Source: an uncultured Gammaproteobacteria bacterium
GTDB taxonomy: Bacteria > Pseudomonadota > Gammaproteobacteria > Pseudomonadales > UBA5518
Length of the DNA: 64,000 bases
Direction of reading: 5' to 3'
Assembly: GCA_903928015.1 (NCBI GenBank)
Contig: CAIYPF010000030.1
Location: 1-64,000 of the forward strand
Positions 11,985 to 62,128 of this stretch are shown here, piece after piece. The notes beneath the pieces were generated by a model that did not search any database, had not been told where the DNA came from, and worked only from the letters and a program-made list of their open reading frames with translations. The translations under genes were made by a program, and so were the position numbers. Numbering within the stretch: position 1 is the stretch's first letter; each line of letters begins with the position of its first letter.

Positions 11985-13503
11985 GCGAGCCCGCACGCCC
12001 GAACGCCATGTCCTCGTCGACCCGATCGGCCATCAGGCTGTCGAGAGCATCGGCAAAATAGTTCTGCCGCACGATCCACGGCCGCCTGCTGGCGGACTTC
12101 GGCAAGGCGTGCGGGTTGCGCAGCACATAGCCCGCCTGCAGGTCCCACAGGGGTTTTTCGGTGACCGGCGCATTACCGATGTGCGGAGAGGCTCTGGTGT
12201 AGTCCTTGGAGCGCATGTAGCGGATCAGCCGCGCGGCGGCGCGGGCCGTCATGTCGGCGCGCAAGGTCCAGGAGGCATTGGTGTAGCCGATGCACCAGAT
12301 GAGGTTCGGTACGTCCTCGAGCATGAAGGACTTGTAGGAGAATCGCTCCTGCGGTTTGACCTCGGTGCCGTCGATGCTGACCCGCACGCCGCCAAGGGCA
12401 CGCAATCGCAGCCCCGTGGCGGTAACGATCACATCCGCATCCAGACGTGAACCGGACGTGAGAGCGATGCCGCCAGCGTCGATGTGGTCGACATGGTCCG
12501 TCACCATTTCGACACGTCCTGCGGAAATGGCGGCAAAGAGATCGCCATCGGCCACGAGGCAGAGCCGCTGGTCCCAGGGGTTGTAGCGGGGCTTGAAGTG
12601 CAGATCCACCGGATATTCCGGCGGCAACAGCGACACGTTCTGCGTGCGCAGGATGCGCTTCGTCAGCGCCGGCGCGGATCGGGCCAGGGTCCAGAACAAG
12701 GCCTCGAAGGTAGACGCCAGGAAGCGCGCGATCCGGTGCGTGGCATTCACAGGCAGGAAGCCGCGCAGGAATTCCACGAGCGGATTCACCCGGGCACCGG
12801 CGAACAGATAACCCGGTGAGCGCTGCAGCATGGTCACCTTGGCCGCCGTCCGTGCCAGCGCCGGCACGAGTGACACCGCTGTCGCCCCGCTGCCGATCAC
12901 AACGATTTTCTTGCCCGAGCAGGCCAGATCCTCCGGCCAGTGCTGCGGGTGCACCACCGTGCCCGCAAAACTCCCGATGCCCGGAAATTCGGGCGTGTAG
13001 CCCGCGTCGTAGTCGTAGTAACCGGAGCCGAAAAACACAAAGCGCGCGCGATGGACCGTGTCGCAGCCGTCCTCGCTGGCACGCACCGTCCACATGTCGG
13101 TGCCGGAATCCCAGTCGGCCGAGTGGACCTGCGTGCGGAAGCGGATGTGCTCGAAGATGCCGTGCTTGCGGGCGGTGTTCTCGAGATAGTCGCGGATGTC
13201 GGCGCCGTCGGCCACCTCTTCCTCGCGGGTCCACGGCTCCCACGGAAAGCTGAGCGCGAAGATGGAGGAATCCGAGCGCACGCCCGGGTAACGGAACAGG
13301 TCCCAGGTGCCGCCCACGCGATCACGTCGCTCGAGTATGCGGTAACGGATGCCGGGGTTGCCTTGGCTGATGCGGAAGGCCGCGCCAATGCCGGAGAAGC
13401 CGGCACCCACGATGATGAGATCGTAGTCGCAGCCGTCATCGCCTGCGGATTGCGTCTCAGCGGCGCAGGGGCTGCTCATCGTGACGGTCTCTGGTGGGGG
13501 CAT
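11971..13503 (-). CDS. Flavin-containing monooxygenase, Baeyer-Villiger type (second copy family)
   Basis: 510-residue FAD/NADPH monooxygenase related to but clearly diverged from the one at the window start. FAD motif GAGFSG at residues 33-38, fingerprint FAGTVVHPQHWP at 179-190 matching FxGxxxHxxxWP, and a second Rossmann motif GSGATA. The early part, RYPGVRSDSSIFALSFPW, is typical of the ethionamide-activating EtaA-like group of Baeyer-Villiger enzymes. ATG codons at 13503 and 13479 are both possible, and neither has an obvious ribosome-binding site. Its 3' end overlaps the convergent amidase gene by 14 bases. Confidence 0.87.
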   Translation of the reverse strand: MPPPETVTMSSPCAAETQSAGDDGCDYDLIIVGAGFSGIGAAFRISQGNPGIRYRILERRDRVGGTWDLFRYPGVRSDSSIFALSFPWEPWTREEEVADGADIRDYLENTARKHGIFEHIRFRTQVHSADWDSGTDMWTVRASEDGCDTVHRARFVFFGSGYYDYDAGYTPEFPGIGSFAGTVVHPQHWPEDLACSGKKIVVIGSGATAVSLVPALARTAAKVTMLQRSPGYLFAGARVNPLVEFLRGFLPVNATHRIARFLASTFEALFWTLARSAPALTKRILRTQNVSLLPPEYPVDLHFKPRYNPWDQRLCLVADGDLFAAISAGRVEMVTDHVDHIDAGGIALTSGSRLDADVIVTATGLRLRALGGVRVSIDGTEVKPQERFSYKSFMLEDVPNLIWCIGYTNASWTLRADMTARAAARLIRYMRSKDYTRASPHIGNAPVTEKPLWDLQAGYVLRNPHALPKSASRRPWIVRQNYFADALDSLMADRVDEDMAFGRAGSLSDP

Positions 13504-13699
13504 AGTGTTGCGAACGCTGGCTGCGCGGCCGGGAAGCTGAGCCTTCAGCAGTCACCGGTAAAGCCATTCTGACGTGCGCATAGCGCCAGGGAGCATAAGG
13601 CCGGCACACACCCGAAACCAAGCCGCCCGGGATGCGAGGGCCTTGACCCGGCCCGCGACACAGAGCACGGCGCCACATGGCGCGGCAACCCGGCACAGG

Positions 13700-14350
13700 C
13701 TAGGACCGAAAGGGTTTTGCCTTGCCGGCTCTGGGCGTGGGCTGGGGCTCGGCAGGCGCGGCGTCGCCCGGAAAGCTGCGGTTCGCGTACCAGCCCTGGA
13801 AGGGGCTGTCCCCGCCCTGCCCCGCCACCGCTGCGTTGCGGGTCATGCGGGATGCCCAATAGCTCTTCTGCAGGGCAGGATCGTCGCTGATCGGCTTCAG
13901 CACGGGCTCACACCGCTCGACGAGGCCACGCGCCACAGGAAAGAAACTGCAGAACGGCTCGCCTTTCTCGAACGTGATCGTGATGTCGGCCCGCGTGATC
14001 TGCCAGTTCATCGAAAAGGTGAAGGGCATCCAGTCGGCCTCGATCAGCGCGCTCATGGGCTGTATCGCGTCCTTGAAACGGTTCACCGGGCCGCTCACCC
14101 ACAGATCGTGACCGGGCGGCGGGCGGATGATCAGCAGCGGGTTGAAGGTCAGGATGCCGCTGCCGAACTGGCTCTCGGCAAAGCCTGCCGGAAAGCTCTC
14201 TTCGGCAGCCCCGGAAGACGCCGCAGTTCCACCGTCGCCAAGCAGGAAAGCGAGGTAGTCCGCGCCAGAGCGCGAGGGCTGCAGCGGGGCATCGGACCGC
14301 TGAATACGACATCCTGGTTTGCGGTGAAACCGTGACCCGCCAGCGTCCAC
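13700..14350 (-). pseudogene. DUF6065-family gene lacking its 5' part
   Basis: The frame up to about 14260 encodes a region I recognise as DUF6065-like: SQFGSGILTFNP, PPPGHDLWVSGPVNRFKD, EADWMPFTFSMNWQITR and FEKGEPFCSFFPV, ending in a proline-rich tail. Family members usually have a further N-terminal portion, which is absent. Upstream the frame runs into the 3' part of the RHS gene, which is read in another frame; the ATG at 14350 is inside RHS coding sequence and is an unlikely start. I therefore read it as a remnant joined to the RHS gene at about 14260-14310 by deletion or recombination. Function of DUF6065 is unknown. Confidence 0.6.
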
Positions 14351-15867
14351 GTAACAACGGTGGAGGTGGCTGTCTTGGCGTTTACCGTGGCGCTCCGGCC
14401 ACGATCCAGATACGCGATCTTGTCGGTCAGATTGCCGTAGGCATCGTAGGTGAAGCGGGTGGTGTCGCCGCCTGCGTCCACCTGCAGGATCAGGTTCTGT
14501 TTGGCGTCGTAGAAGAAGCGCGTGACACCACCCTCGGGGGCCGTGATGGTGCTGATCCTGTTGAACGCGGTGTAGGTGAAGACGGTAACGTTGCCGCTGT
14601 TGTCCGTGCTGGTCAGCAGGTTGCCGCGCCCGTCATAGCTGAGCCTGCGAGTGAACATCGCCAGCAACGCGGCCTTGTTGGCCCCGCTCAGGTTCGCCAG
14701 GTTGCGGGCGAAACCCAGAGATTCGCGAAGGTTCTTGTAGTAATCGCTATCGCTGTTGGCAGCGCCCCAACCGTTTCGGTCCGTCACCGACGTCAGATTG
14801 TCCTTGGCGTCGTAGCCGTAGCTGGTCTCGAAACCGGCCGCATCGATCACCTTGGTGATGTAACCGCTCGCGTTGCATTCGTAGGTCGTGACGTTGCCAA
14901 GAGCGTCCCGCACGGTGGTGCGCACGCCCTTGTAATCGTGATCCGTGAGGTTGAACGCGTAACTGAACGTGGTGACGTTGCCCATGGCGTCCGTCATCTT
15001 CGTCAGCACCGGCGTGCTCGAAGACGAGTCACCGGACCAGTTCACCCTGGTGTACTCGAAGCGGATCTCCCGCACGGTCGCGTCGTTCGACTGCGTCGGC
15101 AGGACGATGCGATTCAGGTAGCCATCTTCCGTGTAGAAGTACTTGGTGACGTGCCCGTAGCGGTCCTGCACCTCGGAGAGGCGGTTGCCCGTCGTGTACC
15201 GGTAGGTAACCAGTGTCACGCCCGTCTCGTCGACGATCGAGGACAGTTTGCTTCTCGTGTACTTGTAGGTAAGCGTATGCCCCGTGTCATCCGCCACCTT
15301 CACCAGGCGGCCCGAGGAATAGGTGAACGTCATCGACACGTCGTTGGTGTCGGTCCATTTGCTGAGATCACCCGAGGTATTGAAAGTGAGCGTGCTCTGG
15401 TCTGCCCGCGTGACCACAAAACCGGTGATCTTGCCCGAGACAACTGTGGGTTTGAGCGTCTCGTAGGCGCCGTCTCCCTGCGTGGTGACGTAGAGGCCGC
15501 TCGCGGGATCGAGCCTGAACAGGTAGACGGAGCCGTCCCCATAGCGGACTTCGTAGGCCTTGCCGCTGTCCCCCTCGCTGATTGTCTTGAGCCGGATGCC
15601 GGTGTTGGCAGCCCAGCGCCCGTCTGTGAAATTGCTCGCGTCGCTGGACCCCGCCCGCGAGTTGTAGGTACGCAGGAACTGGTAGTCCTCGCCACGACTG
15701 GGCAGGAATGTGTCCTGATGGCTGTAGATCAGGTTCCCGTTCGCCACGTTGACGAAGATCTGATCACCGTTGTCGGTGGTGGCTGTGCTCGGCTGGTCGT
15801 TGCGACCGAGCAGGTTCCGCGTGGTGTTCTGCAGGCCGGTCTCGGCACCACCGATCAGAATCGTCAT
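14149..15867 (-). CDS. Truncated RHS/YD-repeat protein
   Basis: 572 codons from the ATG at 15867, which has a good ribosome-binding site (AAAGGA). The protein begins MTILIGGAETGL and carries about ten YD/RHS-type repeats, for example YDAKDNLTSVTDRNG, YDGRGNLLTSTDNSGN and YDAYGNLTDKIAYLDRG. There is no signal peptide. Intact RHS proteins are normally two or three times longer, with a closed beta cocoon, an autocleavage motif and a variable toxin tail; all of that is missing. After VFSGP (about 14305) the reading becomes low-complexity Arg/Ala/Ser sequence, which is the out-of-frame reading of the DUF6065 remnant. The product is probably non-functional. Confidence 0.7.
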   Translation of the reverse strand: MTILIGGAETGLQNTTRNLLGRNDQPSTATTDNGDQIFVNVANGNLIYSHQDTFLPSRGEDYQFLRTYNSRAGSSDASNFTDGRWAANTGIRLKTISEGDSGKAYEVRYGDGSVYLFRLDPASGLYVTTQGDGAYETLKPTVVSGKITGFVVTRADQSTLTFNTSGDLSKWTDTNDVSMTFTYSSGRLVKVADDTGHTLTYKYTRSKLSSIVDETGVTLVTYRYTTGNRLSEVQDRYGHVTKYFYTEDGYLNRIVLPTQSNDATVREIRFEYTRVNWSGDSSSSTPVLTKMTDAMGNVTTFSYAFNLTDHDYKGVRTTVRDALGNVTTYECNASGYITKVIDAAGFETSYGYDAKDNLTSVTDRNGWGAANSDSDYYKNLRESLGFARNLANLSGANKAALLAMFTRRLSYDGRGNLLTSTDNSGNVTVFTYTAFNRISTITAPEGGVTRFFYDAKQNLILQVDAGGDTTRFTYDAYGNLTDKIAYLDRGRSATVNAKTATSTVVTWTLAGHGFTANQDVVFSGPMPRCSPRALARTTSLSCLATVELRRLPGLPKRAFRQALPRASSAAAS

Positions 15868-40124: not shown

Positions 40125-40997
40125 TTACCAGCCCGTCACGTCCTTCACGGCAGAGCCGATGTCGGCAAGGCTGCGCACGGTGCGCACGCCGGCTGCTTCC
40201 AGCGCAGCGAACTTCTCGTCTGCCGTGCCTTTGCCGCCCGAGATGATCGCGCCCGCATGCCCCATGCGCTTGCCCTTGGGCGCCGTGACACCGGCGATGT
40301 AGGACACGACCGGCTTGGTGACATTGGCCTTGATGAAGGCCGCCGCCTCTTCCTCGGCGCTGCCGCCGATCTCGCCGATCATCACGATCGCCTCGGTGCC
40401 CGGGTCGTCCTGGAACATGCGCAGGATGTCGATGAAGTTGGATCCGGGGATCGGGTCACCGCCGATGCCCACGCAGCTCGACTGCCCGAAGCCCGCGTCG
40501 GTAGTCTGCTTGACCGCCTCATAGGTGAGCGTACCGGAGCGCGAAACGATGCCCACACGGCCGGGCTTGTGGATGTTGCCCGGCATGATGCCGATCTTGC
40601 ACTCGCCAGGAGTGATCACGCCCGGGCAGTTCGGCCCGATCAGGCGCACGCCGAGTTCGTCGCACTTCACTTTCACATCGAGCATGTCGAGCGTGGGCAC
40701 ACCCTCGGTGATGCACACGATCAGGCGCAGGCCCGCGTTGGCTGCCTCGAGGATGGAGTCCTTGCAGAAGGGAGCCGGCACGTAGATGACAGAGGCATCT
40801 GCGCCGGTGGCCTCGACGGCGTCACGGACCGTGTCGAAAACCGGCAGGCCGAGGTGGATCTGGCCGCCCTTGCCCGGGGTTACGCCACCCACCATCTGGG
40901 TGCCGTACTCGATCGCCTGCTTGGAGTGGGAAGTGCCCTGTGAGCCGGTGAAGCCCTGGCAAATGACCTTGGTGTCCTTGTTGACCAGAATGCTCAT
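40125..40997 (-). CDS. sucD: Succinate-CoA ligase (ADP-forming) subunit alpha
   Basis: 290-residue SucD of the TCA cycle. [18 protein letters not shown] and [14 protein letters not shown] form the CoA-binding domain, and the phosphorylated histidine lies in the C-terminal [19 protein letters not shown]. It pairs with SucC to make ATP (or GTP) from succinyl-CoA. The gene begins five bases after sucC, as in most bacteria. It is on the same strand as the sdh-suc genes but more than 6 kb away from them. Confidence 0.98.
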
Positions 40998-41002
40998 CGT
41001 GC

Positions 41003-42166
41003 TTACCCCTTCGCTGCCTTGACCACGGACTGTGCTGCCTCGGTGAGGCTGTCGGCCGCGATGATGTTGAGTCCGCTGTCGGCCAGCATCTTGCGGCCGA
41101 GCGGTGCGTTGTTGCCCTCGAGACGGACGACCACCGGCACCTTCACGCCGACTTCGGCGACGGCACCGATGATGCCCTCGGCGATGAGATCGCAGCGGAC
41201 GATGCCGCCGAAGATGTTCACCAGCACGGCGCGCACGGCGCTGTCGGAGAGGATGATCTTGAAGGCCTCGGAGACACGCTCCTTGGTGGCGCCACCGCCT
41301 ACGTCGAGGAAGTTGGCCGGACGGCCGCCGTGCAGGTTCACGATGTCCATCGTGCCCATCGCAAGACCGGCGCCGTTGACCATGCAGCCGATGTCACCGT
41401 CGAGGGCGACATAGTTGATCTCCCACTGCGCGGCGTGCACCTCGCGGGCATCCTCCTGCGTGGGGTCGTGCATTTCGCGCAAGGCCTTCTGGCGGTAAAG
41501 GGCGTTGCTGTCGAGGTTGATCTTCGCATCGAGGCAGTGGAGGTTGCCTGCGGTCGTGATAACCAGCGGGTTGACCTCGAGAAGAGCAAGGTCCTTCTCT
41601 TTGAACAGCTTGGCGAGCTTCAGGAAGATGTCGACGAACTGCGCGATCTGCGGGCCCTTCAGGCCCAGCTTGAACGCGAGCTCGCGGCCCTGATAGGGCT
41701 GGGCGCCGGTGAGGGGATCAATGGCGGCCTTGAAGATCTTCTCGGGAGTCTCGTGGGCGACTTTCTCGATCTCCACGCCACCTTCTCTGGAGGCCATGAA
41801 CACGATGCGGCGCGAACCACGGTCGACCACAGCGCCGAGATAAAGCTCCGAGGCGATGTCGGTGCAGGTTTCGACCAGGATCTTCGAGACCGGCTGGCCC
41901 TTCTCGTCGGTCTGGTAGGTGACCAGGTTGCGTCCCAGCCAGTGGGATGCGAAGGCGCGGATCTCGTCCTTGCTCTTCAGGAGCTTGACGCCGCCGGCCT
42001 TGCCGCGACCGCCAGCGTGCACCTGGGCTTTGACGACCCACATATCACCGCCAATGGCATCGGCAGCGTCTGCCGCCTGGTCGGGGGTATCAACAGCAAA
42101 ACCCTTGGATACGGGAAGCCCGTACTCGGCAAACAGCTGCTTGCCTTGGTACTCATGCAAATTCAT
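41003..42166 (-). CDS. sucC: Succinate-CoA ligase (ADP-forming) subunit beta
   Basis: 387-residue SucC with an N-terminal ATP-grasp fold. Seen: [61 protein letters not shown] and the C-terminal [14 protein letters not shown]. Forms the alpha2beta2 or alpha-beta ligase with SucD. Divergent from the permease-kinase gene. Confidence 0.98.
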
Positions 42167-42480
42167 GGTGTGGTGGTCCTGCGTACGTCTGGGATGGGGC
42201 TACGCCGGGCCGGGCCACAAGCGGGCCGGCCCCGAAGCGGCGGCCATTATGGCCAAAAAGCACTGCCCGTCATACCCCAAACGGGGGAGGCCCCAGGCAA
42301 GACCGGCAAGGCCCGCCCGCAGGGGACGATTCCTGTGACGCCGCACGCAGACTGACTTATAGTCGGAGCCGGGACGAAGCTGCCGCCCCGTGGACTTCTC
42401 ACTCCCCTGTGCATGGGCATCCGCATCAGCGCTGCCCCCGCAGACGGCCAGCCGATACCGCCACTTCCCGGAGAGTCCAG
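42167..42480. other. Divergent intergenic region, sucC / permease-kinase
   Basis: 314 bases with no convincing gene. It should hold the sucCD promoter (minus strand) and the promoter of the permease-kinase (plus strand; a candidate is listed separately). The sucC-proximal half has very GC-rich inverted sequence around CGGGCCGGCC (near 42215-42235). Confidence 0.5.
42335..42363 (+). promoter_or_regulatory. Candidate sigma-70 promoter of the permease-kinase gene
   Basis: GTGACG (42335-42340), a 17-base spacer and TATAGT (42358-42363). It would leave a leader of about 110 bases before the ATG at 42481. Confidence 0.45.
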
Positions 42481-45400
42481 ATGTACGAAAGCGGCGACGT
42501 GGCATCCCCGGATGACGCCCCTCACCCACACAGCCTCGGGTGGCTAGGCACCACAGCCCTCGCGATGGGCGGCGCCAACCAGAGCGTGTTCCTGATCGGC
42601 GCCCTTCTGGTCGGACAGGGCACCTTTCCGGGCCAGGGCAGCGCTGCGGTGGCACTGCTCGTTGTCGGCGTGCTGCTCGGTTGCGCGGCGGTGCCGGGGT
42701 GGATCGAACTCCTCCTCATGTACCCGAAGCGTGTCGGTGGCATATCGGCCACCTGCGCTGAGGCATTCCGCCCCTACAGCCCTATCCTCGCCAACCTCGC
42801 GGGCAGTTGCTATTGGTGGGGCTGGGTGCCCACCTCCGGCTTGTGCGCATTGATGGCTGCGACCGCAATCCAGGCCTGGTACTGGCCAGCCCTGCCCGTG
42901 ATGCCGACAGCAATGGGCATCGTCGTACTGTTCACCTGCATCAACCTCCTCGGTGTCAAATGGGCAGCGCGCGTCGCCATCCCGATGGCGACGCTGTCGA
43001 CGGCGCTGGCGGTGATCTCCGGCCTCGGACCTGTCGCTGCAGGTGAAGTCGACTGGCAGCAAGCCACCAACCTGCATCTCCAGACGCCATTCGAGGGATG
43101 GTTCGGGAGCATGACCAGCGTGATGGCCGGGCTCTTCCTGATCGGCTTCATCGCACCCGCCTTCGAAACCGCGGCATGCCACGTGGGAGAGATGCGCGAC
43201 CCGGAGAAAAACCTGCCGCGAACCATGTTCGCGAGCGCGCTGATCGCCTGCCTGTTTTTCATCCCGCTGCCGATCATCTGGCTGGGCGTACTCGGACCAG
43301 AGAGTCTCTCCCGCGACCTCGCCCAGGAACTCGGCCCGGTGTTCGCGCCGGTTTTCGGCCAGACGGCCAAGGCCGTCGCCGTGTGGTTCATGCTGATGAA
43401 CCTCTTCCTCTGCAGCCTGCAACCGCTGGCGGGAGCACCGCGGACCTTGTCGCAGCTTGGCGAGGACGGTCTGATCCCCCGCGCCTTCGCGCGGCGCTCG
43501 GCGCGCACGGACGTACCGTGGGTAGCCACTCTGTTCACGGCGGCATTCGCCCTCTTCTTCCTGTACCTGCGCGACCCGGTGTGGCTGATCGCGGCCACCA
43601 ATTTCACCTACGTCTTCGGCGGGCTCGTGATGCCGTCGATCGCCGTGTGGTTGCTGCGAAGGGATGCCCCGGATGCACACAGGCCTTGGCGCGCGCCGCG
43701 CGGTGCCATAGGACTCGGTGTGGCTGCCGCCTCGGTCTGGGCCACAACCGCGCTGCTCGGCTTCCAGCAGTTCGGCCTGAAGACGGTGATCATCGGCCTG
43801 GTCTTCGCCTACTCGGGATCAATCCTCTACGTATGGCGACGCTGCGAAGACAAACTGCGCGCGGGCGAACCAATCCGGTTCCGGTCGCTGCACATCAAGC
43901 TCACCGGCGCGATGCTGCTCGTGCTGCTGCTGGACGCTACAGGCTACTATCTGGCCGTGAGCAATCTGCCCCAGACACCCAGCGCGCTGCTGACAGCGCT
44001 GGAGGACATCTTTGTAGTCGTGGCGGTGCTCACCGTCGTGGTGGGTCTGGTACTGCCGGGCATGATCGCTTTCTCGGCGCAGGAGGTGTCCGCCGCCGCG
44101 CGTCAACTCGCAGACGGCACCTTGCACGATTTCTCCAGAGCAATGCGGGCACTGGCAGAGGGCAACCTCGAACAGGCGAGCGCCAAGGTCGGGATCACGC
44201 CGGTACGCGCGACGAGCAGCGACGAACTCGGCGAGATGGCATCGAGCTTCAACCGGCTGCAGTCGGAGGTTGCCACCGCAGCCACTGCCCTTGACGGTGC
44301 GCGACATGGACTCGCTGCGGCACGGGACTCACTGGTGCAGGCCAAGGAATTCGCCGAGGAAGCCAACGCGGCGAAGTCCACGTTCCTCGCGAACATGAGC
44401 CACGAACTGCGCACACCCATGAACGGGATTCTGGGATCCTCCGAACTCCTGATCGGCACTGATCTCTCTCCCGAGCAAAAGGAGCTGGCAGACATCGGGC
44501 GCAAGTCAGCCGTGCAGCTGCTGGGGCTGATCGACGACATCCTCGATATCTCGAAAATCGAAGCCGGCAAGCTGCGGCTGCTCAGGATGCCGCTGGATCC
44601 TGCGGCATTGCTCACGGATATCACGACCATACTCGAGCCGCAGGCGAAGGCAGCACAGCTGGAACTGCACCCCCGCATCGCTGCGAATGTCGCACCGATG
44701 GTGCTGGGAGATGCGGGCCGGATACGGCAGATCCTTCTCAACCTCGCCGGAAACGCCATCAAGTTCACCCAGGCGGGTAGCGTGAGCGTGGAACTGTCGC
44801 AACTCGATGCGGTGCCGGTAGACGGGAAGCTGCGACTGCGGTTCAGCGTCACCGACACCGGCATCGGCATCCACGAACGTGACATGCCTGCGCTGTTCCA
44901 GCCGTTCTCGCAGGTCGACAGCTCGTCGTCGAAGCGCTTCAGCGGCACAGGGCTCGGTCTGGCGATCTGCAAACGGCTGGTCGAAATGATGGACGGAGAG
45001 ATCGGAGTGGAGAGCGAACCGGGCAAGGGCTCGACCTTCTGGTTCACGCTCCCCATGTCCCCGTGCGCTGCGCCCACCGCCGGACAATCCGGGATCGATG
45101 GCCACGTATCCTTGCCGCTCGAGTGGCTGAGCGGTCGGTTGCTCCTCGTGGAAGACAATCCCGCCAACCAGCTCGTTATCCGCTCCATGCTGCGCACCAT
45201 CGGCATCGAAGCCGACCTCGCAGAGGACGGCGCCAAGGCGCTGGAGGTACTTTCCGGCAAGCACTACGCAGTGGTGCTGATGGATTGCCAGATGCCCGTG
45301 ATGAACGGCTACGACGCCACCCGTGCGATCCGCCAGCTCGACCCCCAGGGCAAGGAACTCCGGATCATCGCGCTCACGGCCAACGCGCTTGCGGGCGACC

Positions 45401-45501
45401 GGGAGAAATGCCTCGCCTCCGGCATGGACGACTACCTCGCCAAGCCGGTGAGCATCCTGCAGTTGCGCGAGGCCTTGGGGCGGTCGGTCGAAAAAGCCTG
45501 A
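42481..45501 (+). CDS. APC-family permease fused to a hybrid sensor histidine kinase
   Basis: 1006 residues from the ATG at 42481 (GGAGAG upstream). Residues about 15-440 form a polytopic amino-acid/polyamine/organocation permease-like domain of about twelve helices, with APC features [13 protein letters not shown], a helix pair before [17 protein letters not shown], and [20 protein letters not shown]. Two or three further helices (about 455-535) lead to a HAMP-like region ([14 protein letters not shown]). A full hybrid kinase follows: HisKA with His641 in [11 protein letters not shown], ATPase with N758 in [10 protein letters not shown] and [10 protein letters not shown], and a C-terminal receiver with Asp935 in [14 protein letters not shown] and the acidic pair at 891-892. 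Layout parallels CbrA (SLC5 transporter plus kinase), but the transporter family differs. It likely senses or carries a nutrient, perhaps an amino acid. No Hpt or partner regulator is adjacent. Confidence 0.88.
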
Positions 45502-45583: not shown

Positions 45584-46396
45584 TCACAGCGTCACGGTAA
45601 CGCGCAGGAATGTTGCGGGAATGACCGTTGCACCGGGGTTGCCGCTCCTGTTCTGACTGGCGAACAAGCCTTCCAGCTCTCTCCGCAAATCACCGGCTCG
45701 ACCGTCTTTTTCGGCCGCCTCGAAGGCATTCATGGTCGGCCCGTAGTAGTTCTGGAACGCATCCACCAGCACTGCGGGGTGCTGGGGGTGGCTGAAGGTA
45801 AACGTGTCCCTCGCAAATGAAATGTCCGCTTCCGCAGCACCTGCAGCGGTGAACCGCTCGAGCACATGGCTTTCGATACCCCACATCATCGGACTCAGGA
45901 AGCCTTCGGGTGGTGGCGGCGTGTAGGCAGAGCTGATTTTCAGGATTTGCGCCACCAGCGTGGGATCGCCCGGAATCCAGTTGCCCATGACGATGCGGCC
46001 GCCGGGGCGGGTTACCCGCACCATTTCCTTCGCGACATCAAACGGCCGTGGCGCGAACATGGCGCCGAAGACGGATACGACCAGATCAAACGAACCGGCT
46101 TCGAGCTCTCGGAGATCCGTGGCATCACCCTCCTGGAACCTGCAATTGGTGAGCTGCTCTTGCTCCGCTCGCTGCTGGCCGGCAGCGACCAGGTTGCTTG
46201 CGATGTCTACACCCAGCACGTCTGCGCCGAGTCGCGCCGCAGGCAGCGCGGTAGTACCGTCACCGCAGCCGAGATCCAGCACCTTCATGCCCTTGCGAAC
46301 GCCGAGACTCTCGACCAGTGCTGTGCCGCTATCGCGCATGGTCTGCGCAATGCGGGTGAAATCACCTTTTTCCCATAGCGCCTTGTTCGGGTTCAT
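45584..46396 (-). CDS. Class I SAM-dependent methyltransferase
   Basis: 270-residue cytoplasmic methyltransferase with SAM loop VLDLGCGDGTTALPAA, GVDIASNLV and the post-motif VTRPGGRIVMGNW, similar to UbiE/Methyltransf_11-type enzymes. Residues PPPPEGFLSPMMWG near 165 resemble a group of small-molecule methyltransferases of unknown substrate. ATG at 46396 is preceded by GGAGG. It is divergent from the winged-helix regulator across 150 bases, which suggests regulation by that protein (inference). Confidence 0.85.
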   Translation of the reverse strand: MNPNKALWEKGDFTRIAQTMRDSGTALVESLGVRKGMKVLDLGCGDGTTALPAARLGADVLGVDIASNLVAAGQQRAEQEQLTNCRFQEGDATDLRELEAGSFDLVVSVFGAMFAPRPFDVAKEMVRVTRPGGRIVMGNWIPGDPTLVAQILKISSAYTPPPPEGFLSPMMWGIESHVLERFTAAGAAEADISFARDTFTFSHPQHPAVLVDAFQNYYGPTMNAFEAAEKDGRAGDLRRELEGLFASQNRSGNPGATVIPATFLRVTVTL

Positions 46397-46546
46397 CCTC
46401 GATCTCCTCCCCTCACGGGGTTAACGGTTTCCGGTAGCGTGATTACGCAGGCCTATCGTTGCAGTGCGGCGTGCTCGCTGCTTGGAGAAGATGCGGAGCT
46501 TTCGTGGATTTTCCGTGGAACCCGCTCGCTCGTTTATGCTCTGGCC

Positions 46547-48118
46547 ATGATCTACCGATTCGAATCATTCGAACTCGACACGGACAAGGCCGAATTGCGC
46601 GCCAACGGCGCGCCCGTGGCGATCGAACCCCAGGTACTGGCGCTGATCGCCCTGCTGGCCGGGAACCGTGAAAGGCTGGTCTCACGCGAGGAGATCCTCG
46701 AAAAAATCTGGGAAGGCCGGGTGGTATCGGATACGGCGATCACGAGTCGCATCAAGTCTGCCCGCAAGGCCCTGGGCGATGACGGCACCCGGCAGAGGGT
46801 CATCCGCACGGTGAACAAGCTGGGACTTCGATTCCTGCCGGAGGTCACGCTTGTACACAGCGCCGGGACAAACGAGGTCGTGACCGTTGGCGCCCGGAGC
46901 CAGGCTGCCGCCCCACAGCCCTTGGCCGGAAGTCGCCCGTCGATCGCTGTGTTGCCCTTCCGCAGTCTGGGCGACGCCGCCGTCTCACTGACCATTGCCG
47001 AGGCCCTGCCGCACGAACTGATCGTCGAACTCTCGCGATTGCGCTGGCTGTTCGTGACGGCCCGCGGCTCCTCGTTCCGCCTGCGCGCATCCGAGACCGA
47101 CATGATCGATGTGGGGCAACTCCTCGGCGTGCGCTACTGCCTGAGCGGCACCGTGGAACTCGATGCGGGGACGCTGGGACTGAACGTGCAGCTGGCAGAC
47201 ACACGTGACGGCGCGCTCGTATGGGCCGACAGATTCAGCGGGAGCACGGAGGATGTACACCGCATACGCGCCGACATCAGGGCGCGGGTGCTTGGCGCGC
47301 TGGAGATACAGATTCCGATGCACGAGGCGGCGCTCGCAAGGCTGCGGGTGAGCGAGAATCTCGACGCCTGGTCCGCGTACCACCTCGGGCTGCAGCACAT
47401 GTACCGCTTCAACCGGCAGGACAATGCCGCCGCCTCTGTCTTGTTCAAGCAGGCCACGCGACTCGATCCCGGTTTCGCACGCGCCCACGCAGGCCTGTCC
47501 TTCGTGCACTTCCAGTCCGGATTCCTGCGCTACGACAACGACCTCCGCGGCCAGATCGAGGCAACCCGTCTGCACGCCTCCAGAGCGGTGGAACTCGACC
47601 CCATCGACCCTTTCGTCAACTACACGATGGGACGCAGTTTCTGGTTGAGGGGAGAACTGGAAGAGAGCCTCGGCTGGCTGGAACGGGCAACCGCTTTCAG
47701 CCCGAGCTATGCGCAGGGCCATTACGCCGCAGGCTGGGCGGAGTCGCTGGCAGGGCGCGGACTGCAGGGGCGCGAGAAAGTGGATCTGGCGATGCGGCTT
47801 AGCCCGCTGGACCCTCTGTTCTACGCGATGCTGGCCACGCGCGCGCTGAGCCACATCGCCGTGGCGGAATACATGGAGGCGGTACTCTGGGCCGAGCGAG
47901 CCGCACGCGCGCCAGGCGCCCATGTGCTGATCGTGATGATTGCCGGCGCGGCAAATGCGCTCGTTGGCAAGCTCACCGCTGCGCAGGCATGGGCTGACAT
48001 CGCGCGGGGGCGTAACAGCAATCTGGGCCGAGCCGATTTTTTCAAGTCGTTTCCGATGAAATCGGAGGAGATGCGCACGCGCGTGAACAGCGCGTTGGAG
48101 CTCTGCGGATTCACATGA
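46547..48118 (+). CDS. Winged-helix transcriptional regulator with TolB-like and TPR regions (CadC/HilA-like)
   Basis: 523 residues from the ATG at 46547. The N-terminus is an OmpR/CadC-type winged helix (about 1-95: MIYRFESFELD, REEILEKIWEGRVVSDTAITSRIKSARKALGDD). Next comes a TolB N-terminal-like segment beginning SIAVLPFRSLGD (about 130-260) and then TPR-like helical repeats (about 270-500: LFKQATRLDPGFARAHAGLSF, ASRAVELDPIDPFVNYTMGR). No membrane helix lies between the parts, so unlike CadC it should be cytoplasmic, as HilA is. Signal and targets unknown; the divergent methyltransferase gene is a natural candidate target. Confidence 0.85.
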   Translation: MIYRFESFELDTDKAELRANGAPVAIEPQVLALIALLAGNRERLVSREEILEKIWEGRVVSDTAITSRIKSARKALGDDGTRQRVIRTVNKLGLRFLPEVTLVHSAGTNEVVTVGARSQAAAPQPLAGSRPSIAVLPFRSLGDAAVSLTIAEALPHELIVELSRLRWLFVTARGSSFRLRASETDMIDVGQLLGVRYCLSGTVELDAGTLGLNVQLADTRDGALVWADRFSGSTEDVHRIRADIRARVLGALEIQIPMHEAALARLRVSENLDAWSAYHLGLQHMYRFNRQDNAAASVLFKQATRLDPGFARAHAGLSFVHFQSGFLRYDNDLRGQIEATRLHASRAVELDPIDPFVNYTMGRSFWLRGELEESLGWLERATAFSPSYAQGHYAAGWAESLAGRGLQGREKVDLAMRLSPLDPLFYAMLATRALSHIAVAEYMEAVLWAERAARAPGAHVLIVMIAGAANALVGKLTAAQAWADIARGRNSNLGRADFFKSFPMKSEEMRTRVNSALELCGFT

Positions 48119-61364: not shown

Positions 61365-62084
61365 TCAGTCGCCGGTACTCTGTGCGGAGAACCGGTAACC
61401 GGTTCCCCGTACTGTCTGGATGTAAAGCCCGAAATCGAACTGACCTGCAGCCGCGGGCTCCAGTGCCTTGCGCAAGCGACGCACATGGACATCGACGGTA
61501 CGTTCGTCGATGTACACGTTGGCACCCCACACATGGTCGAGCAACTGCGAGCGGGAATACGCCCGCTCCGGGTGTGTCATGAAGAACTGCAGGAGCCGGA
61601 ACTCCGTGGGTCCCATGGTGAGAGGGCGGCCATCCGCGTACACGCGATGGGCCAGCGGATCGAGTTTCAGCCCGCCCACATCGACAACGCTCGCCTCTTC
61701 CGGCGCGGCAATGCGACGCAGCAGGGCCCGTATGCGGGCGATCAGTTCGCGCGGCGAGAAAGGCTTGGTGACATAGTCGTCAGCGCCACCTTCCAGGCCC
61801 TGCACCCGGTTTCCCTCCTCCACCCGCGCCGTGAGCATGATCACGGGCAGGTCTGCGGTCATCTCGTCCTTGCGCAGGCGGCGCAGCAATTCGAAGCCGT
61901 TGGTCTCGGGCATCATCCAGTCGAGAAGGACGATGTCGGGCTTGCCGTCCAGAATGATCCCGTGCGCCTCACGGGCGCTAGCCGCCTGCTGGACCCTGAA
62001 CCCGGCAAGTTCCAGCGACAACTGCACCATATCCCGAATGGACGACTCGTCATCCACGATCAGCACCGTCTGCTTGTCGTTCAT
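61365..62084 (-). CDS. phoB: Phosphate regulon response regulator PhoB
   Basis: 239 residues from the ATG at 62084 (MNDKQTVLIVDDE), with GAGAG upstream; an ATG four codons earlier at 62096 is the alternative. Receiver domain with phosphorylation Asp in VLLDWMMPETNG and Lys in DYVTKPFSPRELIAR, then an OmpR-type winged helix (GPTEFRLLQFFMTHPERAYSRSQLLDHVWGANVYIDERTVDVHVRRLRKAL). It activates phosphate-starvation genes. Confidence 0.96.
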   Translation of the reverse strand: MNDKQTVLIVDDESSIRDMVQLSLELAGFRVQQAASAREAHGIILDGKPDIVLLDWMMPETNGFELLRRLRKDEMTADLPVIMLTARVEEGNRVQGLEGGADDYVTKPFSPRELIARIRALLRRIAAPEEASVVDVGGLKLDPLAHRVYADGRPLTMGPTEFRLLQFFMTHPERAYSRSQLLDHVWGANVYIDERTVDVHVRRLRKALEPAAAGQFDFGLYIQTVRGTGYRFSAQSTGD

Positions 62085-62128
62085 CGACGCTCTCATGACG
62101 CACCGCTCTTTTGGGTTGACGGCATTGA

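Follow-up and report, generated by a model that had tools for sequence, protein, structure and literature searches.

An APC-family permease that seems to have become a modular receptor for histidine kinases and c-di-GMP enzymes

Introduction

Transporter domains fused to histidine kinases could signal through binding or through flux, and which of the two applies is open even for CbrA, which transports histidine and whose kinase trigger is unsettled (PMC13022988). A related question is raised by a gene in the stretch of DNA analyzed here (the window), which comprises 64,000 nucleotides of contig CAIYPF010000030.1 from an uncultured gammaproteobacterium. The gene joins an APC-family permease domain to a hybrid histidine kinase. 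Is the product a carrier that signals, a receptor that has given up carrying, or an assembly join of two genes? Our analysis indicates that the fusion is genuine and that its N-terminal part recurs on several kinds of signaling protein. The permease apparently now serves as a modular receptor.

Results and discussion

Anatomy of the fusion protein

The gene (42481-45501, + strand) is a single intact open reading frame of 1006 codons with no internal stops. An RBS-like GGAGAG at 42470-42475, 5 nucleotides ahead of the ATG, is shared with a congener. The encoded domains are, in order, an APC-family permease, two extra membrane helices, HAMP, HisKA, HATPase and a receiver. Pfam models match at residues 19-414 (AA_permease_2, PF13520; E 3e-33, 115.8 bits against a cut-off of 27), 548-596 (HAMP; 44122-44268), 631-696 (HisKA; 44371-44568), 743-860 (HATPase_c; 44707-45060) and 888-999 (Response_reg; 45142-45477), and all five matches exceed the curated cut-offs.

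An earlier interpretation made from the letters alone, here called the sequence-only reading, had described a complete hybrid histidine kinase within one gene, and this description is borne out. The phosphoacceptor His641, Asn758 (N758) of the N box and the receiver phospho-Asp, Asp935, are found where that reading had placed them, and the catalytic domain carries DTGIGI at 792 and GTGLGL at 822. The reading had also counted roughly twelve helices. A 12-helix core is indeed present (TM1-12, residues 19-455; 42535-43845), as indicated by Pfam, an AlphaFold2 model and PDB matches, but two further helices between permease and HAMP (about 470-494 and 502-530) had been overlooked, which brings the total to 14. 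TM13 and TM14 (residues 470-530; 43888-44070), recognized by hydropathy and conservation, form a conserved connector to the cytoplasmic HAMP domain.

The head has a predicted SLC7/APC fold

We use "head" for the permease, the two added helices and HAMP together, about 585 residues. AlphaFold2 models of the head have a mean pLDDT of 79.5 when built with 14 sequences and 80.3 with 21. They predict a LeuT-type fold with a break in the TM1 helix at residue 33. With the first of these two nearly identical models, Foldseek and VIA-align group the head with SLC7/APC structures, the Z scores being 38.8 for y+LAT1, 36.9 for LAT1 and 36.5 for AdiC; with SLC7A10 included, the range is 36-39 over 414-429 residues. 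Sequence-level alignment partners are y+LAT2, xCT, y+LAT1 and a bacterial CAT homologue. By its predicted fold, the head belongs to the APC family.

The Pfam scan of the window protein gave no SSF/SLC5 match and no Amt match. It also gave no STAC match, HAMP being found instead, although Pfam may hold no STAC model. An SLC5 identity, the finding that could have overturned the earlier assignment to APC, is ruled out by the AA_permease_2 match, the lack of an SSF match and the SLC7/APC fold matches. In the model, TM13 corresponds to residues 470-494, and TM14 lies in a helix (502-559) that runs unbroken into the first HAMP helix, the confidence for TM13-14 being moderate (pLDDT about 60-72). The second HAMP helix is predicted to continue into a coiled coil before HisKA.

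The fusion is genuine

Because the window genome is a draft of 220 contigs, a permease gene and a kinase gene might have been joined artificially during sequencing or assembly, a risk that the sequence-only reading had recognized. We regard such a join as scarcely credible. A congener (G005) has the same gene with the identical join at the same locus, split over two contigs, with 88% identity in the permease and 79% in the remainder. The same fusion occurs in 21 other full-length proteins. Near-full-length relatives are found not only in many MAGs but also in an isolate, Roseiarcus fermentans DSM 24875, and Paraburkholderia sp. PREW-6R has a 62%-identical head on a plasmid whose sequence is complete. 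These independent occurrences refute an artifact and uphold the reading of a single-gene fusion.

Purifying selection acts along the entire protein, the junction included. Between the congeners, dN/dS is 0.06 for the permease, 0.04 for TM13-14, 0.16 for the kinase and 0.16 for the receiver; these are simple NG86 counts with synonymous sites near saturation, and only the contrast among them is trustworthy.

One head, many outputs

About 25 other genomes carry relatives, and isolates of Paraburkholderia and Roseiarcus are among them. The sequence-only reading had envisaged other genomes with the same fusion, which do exist, but it had missed the modular use of the head on GGDEF-EAL proteins. Among 22 full-length members the head spans 582-586 residues. 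The attached outputs are histidine kinases (HK) without a labeled receiver, with a receiver (HK-REC) or with more than one, HK-REC-Hpt (L113, L158), PAS-HK (L035), a HisKA_3 kinase (L038), GGDEF-EAL (L033, L037, L164, L165, L166) and PAS-GGDEF-EAL (L034). Three members (L026, L028, L029) are labeled HK by their match alone, without a Pfam scan, and a receiver-like motif is present in L028 and L029. By a simple pattern check of the six GGDEF-EAL members, GGDEF is intact in five of six and EAL likewise in five of six. The head is thus a portable module, found on c-di-GMP enzymes as well as on kinases.

In a maximum-likelihood tree of the heads, kinase and c-di-GMP outputs are interleaved. Four changes of output are required, and at least two of them are forced by well-supported branches. 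The two actinobacterial heads are sisters (support 100/98), yet one is attached to a kinase and the other to GGDEF-EAL. The 14 kinase members share a mean identity of 67% in the head versus 45% in the kinase, and the two sets of distances are uncorrelated (Spearman 0.12, p 0.24). Many family kinases score against unrelated kinases of the window genome about as well as against most of their family mates. Because the head tree is interleaved and kinase distance does not follow head distance, there has apparently been more than one exchange of outputs, kinases included.

The family is uncommon and patchily distributed. Searches with a family profile at a strict limit (E 1e-60), which distant relatives would escape, found it in three of 369 genomes of the class and in one of 398 genomes of the phylum, namely that of the window itself. 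It occurs in seven of 36 genomes of the order of one carrier (G145) and in seven of 298 genomes of the family of Roseiarcus. The phylum names of several MAGs are those given in their records. No stand-alone head without an output was seen, the wide profile searches reaching to E 1e-60, and uncut full-length family proteins have 874-1212 residues. Ordinary permeases come no closer than 18-32% identity, in frames of at most 569 residues. A search of the open-access literature, subscription papers being outside its scope, found no earlier description of the family.

Two loci show irregularities of their own. In one (L036 9323-9407; G803:C366, C85), the permease frame enters unrelated sequence at a contig end and the remainder lies on another contig; this end is probably an assembly chimera. 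In another (L160; G823:C28:16013-17325), the head is broken across two frames by a frameshift or a sequencing error.

Conserved helices and lost transport motifs

TM1, TM3 and TM6 are ligand-site helices of LeuT-fold transporters. The same helices concentrate the invariant positions of the family, with 52% of TM6, 42% of TM3 and 38% of TM1, followed by TM14 (37%) and TM13 (32%); TM4 and TM5 have 0-7%. An Asp-Glu pair in HAMP (residues 581-582) is also invariant.

Stand-alone SLC7/APC transporters carry a GxG motif in TM1, where the substrate carboxylate is bound. In a multiple alignment at 20-30% identity, as distinct from a structure-based residue comparison, the intact ordinary APC permeases used as comparators have GGG, GTG or GAG at this position, and the family has N-Q-S (once N-Q-A, once N-Q-M). 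In the window protein this break is N33-Q34-S35 (42577-42585), and N33 and Q34 are invariant in the family. The coupling residue of TM5, Lys or Glu in the comparators, is Ser in the family and Ala in one member. In TM6, E229 retains the acidic side chain of the GFE/GFD position. GxG and the TM5 Lys/Glu are not universal to the APC family, and their loss therefore bears on transport and not on fold membership. The TM1 and TM5 changes suggest an altered ligand or altered coupling and fit a loss of transport. Since GxG in TM1 and the Lys of TM5 are replaced throughout the family, these proteins probably have little or no net transport. The ligand may be something other than a plain alpha-amino acid.

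Genomic context

The gene lies between sucC and an ompA-lpd-sucB-sucA-sdh block. Upstream are the conserved neighbors sucD (40125-40997) and sucC (41003-42166), both on the - strand, which serve as context only. The intergenic region (42167-42480) is shared with the divergent sucC and contains a promoter-like stretch at 42335-42363 (+), identified by consensus match only. The surrounding suc/sdh TCA cluster is conserved, and the fusion gene is an insertion within it. In two congeners (G003, G004), sucC is next to ompA or lpd and the fusion gene is missing at the site. A third (G001) retains a deletion remnant in which the kinase from residue ~802 onward is joined to ~120 bp of the sucC upstream region (L128, G001:C156 1-501), and a second contig of this genome (G001:C437:6-374) encodes residues 883-1005, the C-terminal receiver. 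Its absence or deletion in congeners shows that the genus can do without the gene, and where it lies says nothing firm about the ligand. For the same reasons, regulation of the TCA genes is not claimed.

Between the fusion gene and ompA, the window has a methyltransferase gene and a gene for a Trans_reg_C and TPR regulator (45584-48118), both absent from this place in G005 and G004. Among the loci read, neighbors differ and no conserved operon names a ligand. An actinobacterial GGDEF-EAL member has apparent lipB and 2-oxoacid dehydrogenase E2 neighbors (L037 3-422 and 9544-10365; names read from sequence). Two distant members thus lie near 2-oxoglutarate dehydrogenase-type genes, possibly by coincidence. 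At another locus (L163 1576-3799), genes for a DAACS-type symporter and, judged by eye, a periplasmic amino-acid-binding-like protein converge on the fusion gene and directly adjoin it, which hints weakly at a carboxylate or amino acid ligand.

Phosphorelay partners

A protein that ends in a receiver had been expected to need a separate Hpt and response regulator, neither of them adjacent. Both are indeed lacking beside the gene: the 16 Hpt matches of the genome all fall outside the window, and the response regulator closest to the fusion gene (61365-62096) comes with a PAS kinase of its own. The window genome also encodes stand-alone REC-Hpt proteins. The regulator gene at 46439-48118 (Trans_reg_C and TPR) was rejected as a receiver-type partner, since it has no receiver domain and is absent beside the fusion gene in G005. 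The sequence-only reading had missed what relatives show in this respect: L113 and L158 carry an Hpt of their own, and L035 and L113 have adjacent response regulators. In L035, response regulators flank the fusion gene on both sides. In L113, from Paraburkholderia, the fusion gene already includes an Hpt, and its end is overlapped or followed by genes of the REC-EAL and REC-only types (12404-14537); this locus is a candidate complete phosphorelay to c-di-GMP turnover. In Paraburkholderia sp. PREW-6R, the REC-EAL gene beside the fusion gene is the predicted partner. Together with the GGDEF-EAL members, these partners hint that c-di-GMP is a recurrent output.

A proposed receptor made from a permease

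Our preferred interpretation, which we consider moderately probable, is that an APC-type (LeuT-fold) permease has been repurposed as the sensing part of a ligand-gated membrane receptor. We infer that a small ligand would bind a central site between TM1, TM3 and TM6. The resulting opening or closing motion would be relayed through TM12, TM13 and TM14, the last being continuous with the first HAMP helix in the model. HAMP would turn this motion into a coiled-coil change that sets kinase activity, or GGDEF-EAL activity in relatives. In the window protein, phosphate would then pass from His641 to Asp935 and on to an Hpt and a regulator encoded elsewhere. Ligand binding, the direction of the response and the loss of transport all belong to this proposal; the order of domains, the predicted fold, the constant length of the head, the exchanged outputs and the pattern of conservation are observed. 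More tentatively, and with somewhat less than even confidence, we propose that the APC, two-helix and HAMP head represents a new class of modular bacterial sensory domain, which has given up transport, uses its Asn-Gln site to bind something other than a plain alpha-amino acid, and has been moved across several phyla by recombination among histidine kinases and c-di-GMP enzymes.

The sequence-only reading had suggested sensing by carrying. A true transceptor of this kind would carry its substrate through the APC domain, with kinase activity set by the transport cycle or by binding during it, as proposed for CbrA; in our judgment this is unlikely, though it deserves weight. The 12-helix core is complete, TM1, TM3 and TM6 are conserved, E229 keeps the acidic TM6 position, and the SLC5 domain of CbrA carries histidine, which shows that fusion need not abolish transport (PMC13022988, PMC7096432). 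Yet GxG and the TM5 Lys/Glu are replaced in every aligned member. Other LeuT-fold carriers use other coupling residues, so this replacement is not decisive, but it makes sensing by carrying doubtful and seems no less compatible with a receptor than with a carrier. The receptor interpretation must itself accommodate motif losses read at low identity, dN/dS values near saturation, modest TM13-14 confidence, and a gene that is not essential, given that a sister species has deleted most of it and two others lack it at the site. That the head instead senses a partner or a membrane state (for example, proton motive force or another protein) and has no ligand of its own would agree with the lack of a known ligand and of a conserved neighbor gene among the loci read. 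This is quite improbable, as the scaffold helices TM4 and TM5 show little invariance, which gathers instead in the helices presumed to bind a ligand.

Comparison with known systems

Yeast Ssy1 is a non-transporting amino acid sensor of the APC family. It resembles the proposed receptor in its use of an APC-type permease, but it is eukaryotic and signals via associated proteins, with no fused kinase. Yeast transceptors have been reviewed (PMC5890159). Stand-alone SLC7/APC transporters such as y+LAT1, AdiC, BasC and GkApcT share the fold and Pfam family of the head, but they are at most about 30% identical to it and have no HAMP or output domain. TorS and BarA share the kinase-receiver half but have a different sensing half, and the window protein scores far below their equivalog cut-offs.

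Closer in plan are the SLC5-STAC sensor kinases CbrA, CrbS (MxtR) and RpuS (PMC13022988, PMC7918813, PMC9100948), which have a LeuT-fold transporter domain N-terminal to the histidine kinase and, in CrbS, a receiver at the end as well. They differ in having an SLC5 head of 13 helices and STAC, whereas the head described here is APC/SLC7-like, adds two helices and HAMP, and also serves GGDEF-EAL outputs. By analogy, the closest precedent for the receptor model is the ammonium sensor kinase Ks-Amt5, a transporter domain that has become a receptor fused to a histidine kinase, with transport lost and a binding site gained (PMC5764959). Its Amt/Rh fold, its lack of HAMP and receiver, and its ligand class set it apart. 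The window protein may work in the manner of CbrA or Ks-Amt5 without being of either type, as it lacks their SLC5 and Amt features and has HAMP where CbrA has STAC.

HAMP is a well-understood connector, and a near-constant head on kinases, HisKA_3 kinases and GGDEF-EAL proteins can be studied apart from its output, with the natural swaps as controls. If the receptor model is correct, SLC7/APC proteins would join the transporter folds recruited as bacterial receptors, in this case with a direct link to c-di-GMP.
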